From a virus, in the IMG/VR virus record IMGVR_UViG_3300008997_000013, positions 37,419 through 101,418 of that record: a DNA stretch of 64,000 nucleotides; one strand, given 5' to 3'. A program made the position numbers and the translations under genes. Positions 12,256 through 17,986 of this stretch are shown piece by piece; within the stretch, counting starts at the first letter, position 1, and every line of letters starts with the position of its first letter. Below the pieces are notes generated by a model. That model worked only from the letters and a program-made list of their open reading frames with translations. It ran no database searches and was not told the DNA's origin.

Positions 12256-12300
12256 CAATCCTGTGTCCTGTGCTGAATCCCCGTTCAGTTGGAGCATTCT

Positions 12301-12985
12301 ATGTCTCTCATCGTTGAGATCAGGGCTGCGGAAGGAGGAGAGGACGCCAAGCTCCTTGTCCTTCAGCAGTTGTCCGTGTACTCCAAGTTTGAGGCTCGGG
12401 GGTCCCTTTGACTTCACGTTGGAAGTTGTAGCTGAACGACCAGGCTACATTGCACTGAGGGTCACGGGGAAGGACGCACGGAGAGCCTTCCGCAACGAGG
12501 CTGGAGGCCACCGCTGGCAACGGGTTCCCCCGACGGAGAAGCGAGGGAGAGTCCACACGTCCACGATCACCGTGGCGGTGCTTCGAGAACCCACTCCATC
12601 CCAGGTTCGGCTGGATCCCAAGGACCTGGATATCACGACCTGCCGTGGTTCCGGCAAGGGTGGGCAACACAAGAACGTGACGGACAGCGCTGTCCAGGTC
12701 AAACACAAGCCCTCTGGCATCATCGTACGGGCAGAGGCCGAGAGGTCTCAGAACCAGAATAAGGAGCTCGCCCTGGGCGTCCTTCGGGCCAAGCTCCAGG
12801 AAGTCCGTACAGAGGGCGAGAACACCCGTAGAAACGCTCGTAGAAGATCCCAGGTAGGCTGCGGGGCCCGCGGTGACAAGCGCCGTACAGTACGCCTACA
12901 GGCCGGCCAGGTCGTGGACCACATCACCGGGAGGAGGACCTCAGCGAAGTCCTATCTCAGGGGACAGCTGGAGAAGCTGTGGTAG
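12301..12985 (+). CDS. Class I peptide chain release factor lacking domain 1, with prfB-like +1 frameshift
   Basis: ATG 12301 begins MSLIVEIRAAEGGEDAKLL, the start of release-factor domain 2 (EIRAGxGG), and runs 36 codons to TGA 12409-12411. Coding resumes in the +1 frame at GAC 12410. The junction CGGGGG-TCC-CTT-TGA-C has the same layout as the RF2 gene recoding site (AGGGGG-TAT-CTT-TGA-C). Joined, the product is about 227 residues: GGHRWQRVPPTEKRGRVHTS holds a PxT-type recognition motif (PPT, 76-78) as in RF1, and RGSGKGGQHKN carries the catalytic GGQ (120-122). Domain 1, used to bind RF3, is absent, as in PrfH. It would release peptides at stop codons or rescue stalled ribosomes. Confidence 0.8.
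12406..12412 (+). promoter_or_regulatory. Programmed +1 ribosomal frameshift site (prfB-like)
   Basis: CTTTGAC with an SD-like CGGGGG run exactly three bases upstream (12397-12402). In Escherichia coli prfB, slow UGA decoding plus pairing of the G-run to 16S rRNA lets the CUU tRNA slip +1 onto UUU. All three elements are present here at the same spacing. The alternative explanation is one surplus G in the run of five. Confidence 0.65.
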
Positions 12986-15990: not shown

Positions 15991-17139
<1,149 letters not shown>

Positions 17140-17167: not shown

Positions 17168-17191
17168 AGTCTTGAGGAAGGAGTGACCAAC

Positions 17192-17986
17192 ATGTTCCAG
17201 GTGCCCACCAACTGCCCCTCCTGTGGTTTCGAGCTCGAGATGGACGGAGGATACCTGAAGTGCTGCGGGCCCACGTGCCCGGCGCAGGTAGTCGGTTCCC
17301 TCAACCGGTGGGTGGGGAAGCTCCGCATCCTCAACATCGGGAACGCTCTGATCCAGGCCCTGGTCGATGCCGGGCGTGTGTCGGATATCTCTGGCCTGTA
17401 CAGGCTGGAAGAGTCCTGGCTGCGCGAGTTCGAGATCGATGGCCGCAAGGTGGGCGGAAACGCCCGGCGCGTGGTGGCCTCCCTGAACGCAGCGCGGGAT
17501 ATCCCCGTCGACATGTTCGTGGGGAGCCTCGGGATTCCTCTCTGCGGCCGCAAGATGGTCAGCATCCTGGTCGACGCCGGCTACGACGACCTCAGCAAGC
17601 TCGCCAAGGTCACGACTGCTCAGATGGAAGCGGTCCCCGGGTTCGGCGCCGAGCGCGCTCGTAGCTTCCGTGCCGGCTTCGATGCATGCCGCTCTCTGAT
17701 GCTCCAGATCATGGCCTCCGGAGTCGACGTGATCGCTCCGGTCCGCGCGGTGGCTACCGGAGATGCGATGGCCGGCCAGGCCGTGTGCTTCACGGGTGTC
17801 CGTGACAAGGAGGCTTCCGCGGCCATCGTGGATCAGGGCGGCAAGATCGCCAGCGGCGTGTCCAAGAACACCACCCTGTTGGTCGCGAAGAACCCCGCCT
17901 CCACCAGCGGCAAGGCCAAGAAGGCTCGCGCCCTGGGTATCGAGATCATCAGCCAGGCCGAGATGCGGTCCCGGCTCGGCCTCTGA
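17192..17986 (+). CDS. NAD-dependent DNA ligase, zinc-finger/HhH/BRCT part (split)
   Basis: 264 residues from ATG 17192 (AAGGAG ten bases before; GTG 17183 is too close). Begins with the Cys4 zinc finger (CPSCGFEL ... CCGPTCPAQ), continues with helix-hairpin-helix repeats (LVDAGRVSDISGLYRLEE; VPGFGAERARSFRAGF), and ends with a BRCT domain (AGQAVCFTGVRDKEASAAIV; VSKNTTLLVAKNP; EIISQAEMRSRL). These are the DNA-clamping domains of bacterial LigA and would assemble with the upstream product into one enzyme. Confidence 0.9.
   Translation: MFQVPTNCPSCGFELEMDGGYLKCCGPTCPAQVVGSLNRWVGKLRILNIGNALIQALVDAGRVSDISGLYRLEESWLREFEIDGRKVGGNARRVVASLNAARDIPVDMFVGSLGIPLCGRKMVSILVDAGYDDLSKLAKVTTAQMEAVPGFGAERARSFRAGFDACRSLMLQIMASGVDVIAPVRAVATGDAMAGQAVCFTGVRDKEASAAIVDQGGKIASGVSKNTTLLVAKNPASTSGKAKKARALGIEIISQAEMRSRLGL

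Follow-up and report, generated by a model that had tools for sequence, protein, structure and literature searches.

The 64,000-nucleotide stretch analysed here (hereafter the window) is part of a 101,418-base IMG/VR virus record (IMGVR_UViG_3300008997_000013) and carries, at 12301–12985 on the plus strand, a release-factor gene whose reading frame is interrupted. The parts of this gene all lie on the same strand. Read directly from the sequence, the gene begins with an ATG at 12301, preceded at a distance of 6 nt by a likely ribosome binding site (GGAG, 12291–12294), and runs for 36 codons into a TGA at codon 37 (12409–12411); the +1 frame is open from GAC at 12410 through to a TAG at 12983–12985. 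The zero-frame open reading frame (ORF; 12301–12411) encodes the first part of release-factor domain 2 with its signature GGEDAK, and the +1-frame remainder (12410–12985) encodes the rest of domain 2 together with domains 3 and 4, including the codon-recognition motif PPT (12527–12535; an RF1-type PxT, where RF2 has SPF) and the GGQ peptide-release motif (12659–12667). At the junction, an internal Shine-Dalgarno (SD)-like element, CGGGGG (12397–12402), is separated by the three bases TCC (12403–12405) from the slip codon CTT (12406–12408), which directly precedes the TGA and is followed, after the stop, by C at 12412, so that the slip site as a whole spans 12406–12412. The exact pattern GGRGGNNNCTTTGA occurs only once in the window, at this junction. 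The original prediction, made from the letters alone, had proposed a phage release factor read through a prfB-like +1 frameshift in domain 2, and the 36 codons running into TGA with the remainder in the +1 frame are indeed found as described. It had also equated the junction with that of the Escherichia coli RF2 gene; the 3-nt spacing and CTT-TGA-C agree, but the E. coli prfB record reads AGGGGG-TAT-CTT-TGA-C against CGGGGG-TCC-CTT-TGA-C in the window, and the runs are thus alike, not identical.

When CTTT is read as one step, the joined product is 227 amino acids long. It matches the PCRF domain over residues 2–91 (66.9 bits, starting at profile position 101 of 194) and the RF-1 domain over residues 101–207 (95.9 bits), and the window gene is the sole RF-1-domain match in its virus record. 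In comparison with PHROG 19918, the 36-residue piece alone gives an E value of 0.093, the +1 piece 142.6 bits and the joined protein 160 bits. Models of RF1 score the joined protein highest (206.9 and 199.1 bits, below their cut-offs of 400 and 423), and the RF2 and prfH models give 129 and 82.1 bits, also below their cut-offs (166.65 for prfH). The window protein therefore lacks the marks of a canonical RF1, namely domain 1, about 350 residues and a score above the curated cut-off, although it has the RF1 motifs (PxT, the Gln of HRxQ, and GGQ). Nor does it look like RF2, with an SPF motif and a stop read by RF2: its motif is PPT and RF1 models fit it best, even though the stop in the window is TGA.

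A first search of the joined protein against IMG/VR yielded 24 relatives, those aligned being 36–70% identical to the window protein, and none of the 24 had an intact frame: in 14 the break is a CTT-stop +1 site at the window's place, in one (L021) a CTT-TAG site further on, and in nine an in-frame UGA. To these we added the top 80 of 373 viral matches and the top 80 of 297 cellular ones, from which more distant members may differ. The resulting 184 loci were put, with the window, through a frameshift-aware profile alignment, and 136 distinct short genes were retained after removal of 23 exact duplicate genes, 21 loci with an alignment score of 600 or less, three full-length RF1s (L143, L147 and L148) and two loci in which the site region is missing (L130 and L142). 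The low-scoring loci included L173 (CTT-TAG, on a short contig), L166 (short and uninterrupted) and L177 (weak, with a TGA). Seven genes were classed by eye: L127 and L164 as in-frame TGA, which the alignment had drawn as paired shifts; L144 as CTT-TAG with later disruptions; L123 as CTT-TGA with a C-terminal shift; L076 as in-frame TGA despite an early −1 step; L154 as in-frame TGA with a later indel; and L138 as two indels.

Altogether, 132 of the 136 distinct short genes were recoded. A CTT-stop +1 site was present in 95 (72 TGA, 21 TAG and 2 TAA) and an in-frame stop in 37, leaving three uninterrupted genes and the one with two indels. Leaving the window apart, the viral genes comprised 55 frameshifted, 23 in-frame and three uninterrupted cases, and the cellular genes 39 frameshifted, 14 in-frame and the one with indels. 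The in-frame genes contain one stop or two (two in 14 of 37), the first always TGA and the second TAG in L089 and L098; in none of the relatives analysed did a CTT-stop shift and an in-frame stop occur together. At least 170 codons are open after the shift in 93 of the 95 frameshifted genes; L021 has 169, and L169 ends at the contig end. The two nearest relatives of the window on the tree, L002 and L027, share CGGGGG-TCY-CTT-TGA-C, so the comparison with related phages that had been suggested finds both the UGA and the G run retained where the relationship is closest. Two doubts raised with the original prediction fared less well. A single surplus G in the GGGGG run does not explain the shift, because most relatives carry GGAGG, with no G run, and still require it; and relatives with an in-frame gene and no UGA amount to only three of the 136, none of them nearest to the window.

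The slip Leu falls on the column of a conserved RF1 Trp (E. coli RF2 position 161) in 88 of the 95 frameshifted genes, and the other seven lie at positions 160, 166, 171, 178 (twice), 179 and 183. Among the 49 in-frame stops, 12 are on the conserved Trp column and 37 on six other columns, of which those near a deleted loop are alignment-dependent. A tree of 141 rows implied at least 17 changes among frameshift, in-frame stop and neither, a count inflated by L127, L138, L144 and L164, which the script had labelled clean. Given the several positions and the changes on the tree, it is likely that the recoding site arose or moved repeatedly. No association between the identity of the stop and the PxT variant was apparent by eye in the counts.

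To characterise the family further, we compared 135 short proteins in one alignment with six full-length RF1s and E. coli RF2 (positions in E. coli RF2 numbering). GGQ is present in all 135, Gln at 202 in 134, Pro at 205 in 129, and Thr or Asn at 207 in 126; judged by these residues, codon recognition is of the RF1 type. The short proteins thus share with canonical RF1 (prfA) the PxT motif, the Gln of HRxQ, GGQ and the fold of domains 2–4. In contrast to the six full-length RF1s, which have domain 1, Glu at 140, Ala or Gly at 142 and the loop 172–177, all but one of the 135 carry Asp at 140 and all but one carry Glu at 136; position 142 is Lys or Arg in 128, and the loop is missing in at least 128; in 36 of them Gln replaces His at 214. 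The predicted fold of an in-frame relative, L007 (mean predicted local distance difference test score 83.7; predicted template modelling (TM) score 0.68), finds its best matches in the PDB in ribosome-bound RF1, with a TM score of 0.87 on the query, compared with 0.62 for PrfH. PrfH resembles the family in being a class I release factor without domain 1, according to the accessible portion of PMC1586002, which also describes its frames as intact, whereas the window gene is recoded. The window protein moreover falls far short of the prfH cut-off, in contrast to its roughly 200 bits with the RF1 models, and the PrfH arrangement of an above-cut-off score with an RtcB gene upstream is not found at this locus. 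These features suggest that the gene codes for a class I release factor of the RF1 type that lacks domain 1, stands alone and presumably has release activity.

We asked what is conserved at the site beyond the protein. Over 91 distinct frameshift contexts the consensus is CGGAGG-NNN-CTT-TGA/TAG-C, with CTT in all 91 and C after the stop in 68. Across 94 loci, the 12 nt before CTT pair with the anti-SD sequence at a mean of −7.4 kcal/mol, compared with −3.3 kcal/mol when synonymous codons are redrawn and −2.3 kcal/mol elsewhere in the same genes, and in 84 of the 94 the pairing is stronger than the synonymous mean of the locus itself. Among Arg codons, CGG and AGG account for 116 of 126 at the two SD codons, against 627 of 2233 downstream of the shift. 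The SD-like run 3 nt before CTT hence exceeds what codon bias would give. In 16 chosen pairs of relatives, the ratio of nonsynonymous to synonymous substitution rates (dN/dS) was 0–0.33 before the shift and, in 14 of the 16, 0.09–0.45 after it, dS being saturated in two; for the two pairs that include the window, dS exceeds 2 after the shift and the values are rough. By these ratios, purifying selection acts on the gene both before and after the shift.

As a control, 188 Myxococcota genomes were searched with the joined protein, which matched 106 places at E ≤1e-40. One of these was a recoded gene of the Nannocystis centre genome; the other 105, full-length RF1-type genes with open frames of at least 341 residues, contained no internal stop in any case, and the interruption therefore belongs to the short family and not to the RF1-type genes of these organisms. 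With this cut, a short gene turned up in that single genome only, in a search that scored 15 candidates per genome and so may miss short genes. Two further intact RF-1-domain genes of at least 351 residues were present in 12 of 13 host genomes searched; the remaining one (G002) had one RF-1-domain gene of 399 residues and a 274-residue frame that may be the recoded gene. Each of 38 records selected for carrying the gene had exactly one RF-1-domain match. ORF coverage under other genetic codes was also tried as a test and proved uninformative, since dropping any stop tends to raise coverage.

Taken together, these results lead us to favour, with a probability of roughly 0.8, a self-throttled backup release factor that is made full-length by a +1 slip at CUU-UGA when termination is slow. 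Recoding of the short release-factor family is strongly supported by the comparison of sequences; that the shift takes place in the cell, and the regulatory role and codon range of the factor, are inferred. The analogy builds on the slip model for prfB, which, as presented in the available sections of PMC5009743, involves a pause at the stop, +1 re-pairing and help from an SD-like element. In the window gene, the ribosome would pause at CUU-UGA with peptidyl-tRNA on CUU and the A site unfilled at the stop; the SD-like run would pair with 16S rRNA and help the peptidyl-tRNA to re-pair in the +1 frame, and termination would not occur. Quick termination would yield a 36-residue peptide without GGQ, and slow termination the full factor. 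As full-length protein would arise only upon slipping instead of terminating, the stop would act as a throttle, and the factor might serve as a backup terminator or rescuer once canonical termination lags. Where the site stop is UAG or UAA, as in some relatives, direct autoregulation by an RF1-like factor would be possible; where it is UGA, as in the window, the gene may sense RF2 capacity, or the factor may read UGA too. A link between synthesis of the factor and slow UGA decoding, which the original prediction had put forward, would be plausible. Of 53 ORFs of at least 100 codons that were picked greedily in the window, 35 end in TGA, which may hint at a high demand for RF2 during infection.

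Several observations weigh against the self-throttled factor. Uninterrupted short genes exist in viruses (L031, L037 and L071), in one huge phage (L188) and in a cellular locus below the score cut (L166), so recoding is not indispensable. Anti-SD pairing is weaker than −6 kcal/mol in 24 of the 94 frameshifted loci, and in 11 it does not exceed the average for the rest of the genes. Of the 132 recoded genes, 109 have UGA as the site stop despite an RF1-type (UAA/UAG) motif, as simple autoregulation would not predict, and strict self-control is accordingly expected only in the 23 UAG or UAA cases. In 69 of the 95 frameshifted genes, an ATG, GTG or TTG lies at most 28 codons downstream in the +1 frame, where a second polypeptide could start. 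Finally, the slip-site motif taken alone is not rare in the window: with one mismatch allowed, GGRGGNNNCTTTGA has 3 matches against 4.45 expected by chance. The weight is thus carried by its placement at the exact frame change and by its conservation in relatives.

One alternative accepts that the recoding is real but holds that it merely fixes a low level of a factor harmful when abundant, with no sensing involved. UGA, the leakiest stop, is preferred at the site although the motif is RF1-type, and T follows the stop at only 1 of 95 frameshift sites and at none of the 49 in-frame stops, as weak termination predicts. Toxicity of unregulated RF2 is reported in the accessible text of PMC12421855. 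Nevertheless, a weak ribosome binding site would suffice to keep a level low, yet recoding takes two forms and is found at several sites along the protein, which argues, by reasoning and not as a test, that termination itself is the input. We therefore consider a fixed low level possible but unlikely. Production of two polypeptides, a 36-residue N-terminal fragment and a separately initiated C-terminal fragment that assembles with it or acts alone, is considerably less probable. The copy on the Variovorax WDL1 megaplasmid is annotated as two coding sequences divided at the in-frame UGA, one for a hypothetical protein and one for a release factor-like protein, and the +1 frame of the window is open upstream to a GTG at 12263, which, along with the downstream start codons mentioned above, would fit such a scheme. 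However, the first +1-frame ATG is at least 28 codons past the shift in 86 of 95 loci; even with GTG and TTG allowed, the first start is at least 28 codons past it, beyond conserved domain-2 residues, in 26 of 95; upstream of the shift, a stop closes the +1 frame within 36 codons in 64 of 95; and CTT is invariant in the 91 contexts, which reinitiation would not require.

A further alternative concerns the in-frame members only, which would involve no recoding if they used genetic code 4 (UGA = Trp); for the +1 members the question does not arise. Many in-frame members are in AT-rich phages, 14 of the 37 have two in-frame stops, and TGA occurs inside 22 of 54 long code-4 ORFs pooled from 22 read-through loci. 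On the other hand, in 49-kb stretches of the huge-phage records LR756501 and LR745206, 4 of 7 and 8 of 9 long code-4 ORFs, respectively, have no TGA, its density is 0.96 and 0.62 per 1000 codons, and TGA also ends ORFs there. No tRNA with a UCA anticodon was found in the flanks of the 33 read-through loci (of 37) that were scanned, and members also occur in Variovorax, Rhizobium, Thalassospira and Jiella, which use the standard code. An explanation by code 4 is thus very improbable. Least credible of all, and for the family refuted by these comparisons, is the idea of a sequencing or assembly error (one G too many in the run) or of a gene decaying into a pseudogene: although the site includes GGGGG, and Nannocystis pusilla L138 (4001–4670) shows two single-base losses relative to close relatives that are probably long-read errors, a shift of this kind recurs in 95 of the 136 short genes, across numerous distinct records that include genomes of named isolates as well as huge phages, with 88 sharing the alignment position of the slip Leu, dN/dS well below 1 on both sides, and CTT, SD run and base after the stop conserved beyond the amino acids, and for the window record itself L002 and L027 carry the same G run.

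The gene is widely scattered. Its carriers include many IMG/VR contigs, and 187 phage-collection records match. Six huge-phage records were analysed, and five of them have recoded copies: LR745206 (634,780 bases) and LR756501 (735,411 bases) with two in-frame UGA, LR756504 (636,363 bases) and LR756502 (642,428 bases) with in-frame UGA, and LR745208 (485,034 bases) with CTT-TGA; in LR756511 the short gene is uninterrupted. Recoded copies hence reach genomes of up to 735 kb, and the largest curated complete genomes given in the accessible part of PMC7162821 are 634, 636, 642 and 735 kb. Cellular carriers include Minicystis and Nannocystis chromosomes and contigs of Pyxidicoccus and others. Four of 92 plasmid records were analysed, giving two in-frame UGA copies, one full-length RF1 and one Bosea copy without assignment; Rhizobium leguminosarum plasmid pRlX5 carries an in-frame UGA copy.

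Clustering of 1914 ORFs around 135 loci and the window revealed no partner common to more than 11 of the 136; the two clusters that exceed this size (24 and 22 loci) appear to consist of ORFs antisense to the release-factor gene itself. A connection of the RtcB-PrfH kind was considered and discarded, RtcB being present in only 7 of the 38 gene-carrying records and absent from G000. At L012, L016, L039 and L051, a same-strand gene with a KxDG motif, which resembles an RNA ligase, lies 0.2–0.8 kb upstream of the release-factor gene. Genes for tRNAs are found near several copies. Seven phage loci of the clade with two in-frame stops (L072, L073, L076, L083, L085, L094 and L102) have CUA-anticodon tRNA genes, called tRNA-Pyl by ARAGORN, 1–4 kb after the release-factor gene; these are possible amber suppressors. 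A tRNA-like gene with a four-base anticodon (ccta) is located at L105:4490–4566, in a locus whose release-factor gene has two in-frame UGA. At L023:2220–2295, a tRNA-Trp(CCA) gene lies about 300 nt downstream of a release-factor gene with UGA at the Trp column and could supply the readthrough tRNA. The phage loci L094 (2036–2395) and L102 (3723–4077), which also bear recoded release factors, contain tmRNA genes. Elsewhere in the window, what by eye is an NAD-dependent DNA ligase-like gene extends over two ORFs (16009–17139 and 17183–17986); the first ends in an ordinary TGA with no CTT-stop site, and the second has its own start after a purine-rich stretch. This split gene may be among those earlier taken as frameshifted.

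Bacterial prfB and the window gene share an SD-like G run, a 3-nt spacer, CTT, a stop and C, a layout that also agrees with the survey consensus of the prfB site in the available text of PMC12421855. They differ in that the prfB site is near the N-terminus and that of the short family in domain 2, and in that prfB encodes RF2, whereas the short family is RF1-type, lacks domain 1 and in part has in-frame UGA instead of a shift. Moreover, the frameshift stop of the family is TAG in 21 and TAA in 2 of 95 genes, whereas the same text of PMC12421855 reports no TAG in 8,164 prfB genes. That 2025 survey of 12,753 genomes describes, in the portion available, no convincing case of a programmed shift in prfA; the 34 prfA pseudogenes that it reports lack conserved frameshift elements. 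According to Atkins et al. 2016 (PMC5009743), an in-frame UGA with the remainder in the same frame is absent from RF2 genes, and a UAG/RF1 counterpart is not known, a giant virus being named as the exception. The giant virus case is the eRF1 gene of Mimivirus (R726; Megavirus mg280), which according to the accessible part of PMC3521657 needs UGA-C readthrough and a frameshift at UAG (UAA in Megavirus). It resembles the short family in being a virus-encoded release factor whose gene requires recoding, but it is of eRF1 type and in amoeba viruses, whereas the short family is of bacterial RF1 type, with a prfB-like cassette, in phages, plasmids and chromosomes. Every CUU-stop +1 case in RECODE is prfB according to the available text of PMC10274946 (PRFect), and our searches of the open-licence literature found no paper on a recoded short RF1-type family. 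In the portions of the published surveys available, then, recoding is not described for any RF1-type bacterial gene, nor UAG for prfB, nor in-frame readthrough for a bacterial release-factor gene.

Previously described bacterial release-factor recoding concerns RF2 at UGA, and the family adds RF1-type cases without domain 1. Its natural variants (UGA, UAG, UAA, slippage, readthrough and none) allow tests of the reason why release factors are throttled by their own substrate, and huge phages are seen to carry a gene of a kind that standard annotation splits. Interrupted in nearly all close relatives examined, the gene looks like a built-in gauge of stopping efficiency. We would give even odds to a broader proposal, in which the family, marked by a PxT motif and found in large phages, megaplasmids and some chromosomes, would make up a third kind of bacterial class I release factor. 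Its synthesis would be gated by termination failure, and the gate, either a +1 slip at CUU before UGA, UAG or UAA or an in-frame UGA readthrough, would have arisen or moved repeatedly at several positions in domain 2 (E. coli RF2 160–183); the factor may recognise any of the three stops or act on ribosomes that are impaired. If this is true, any loss of termination capacity during infection would switch the factor on.
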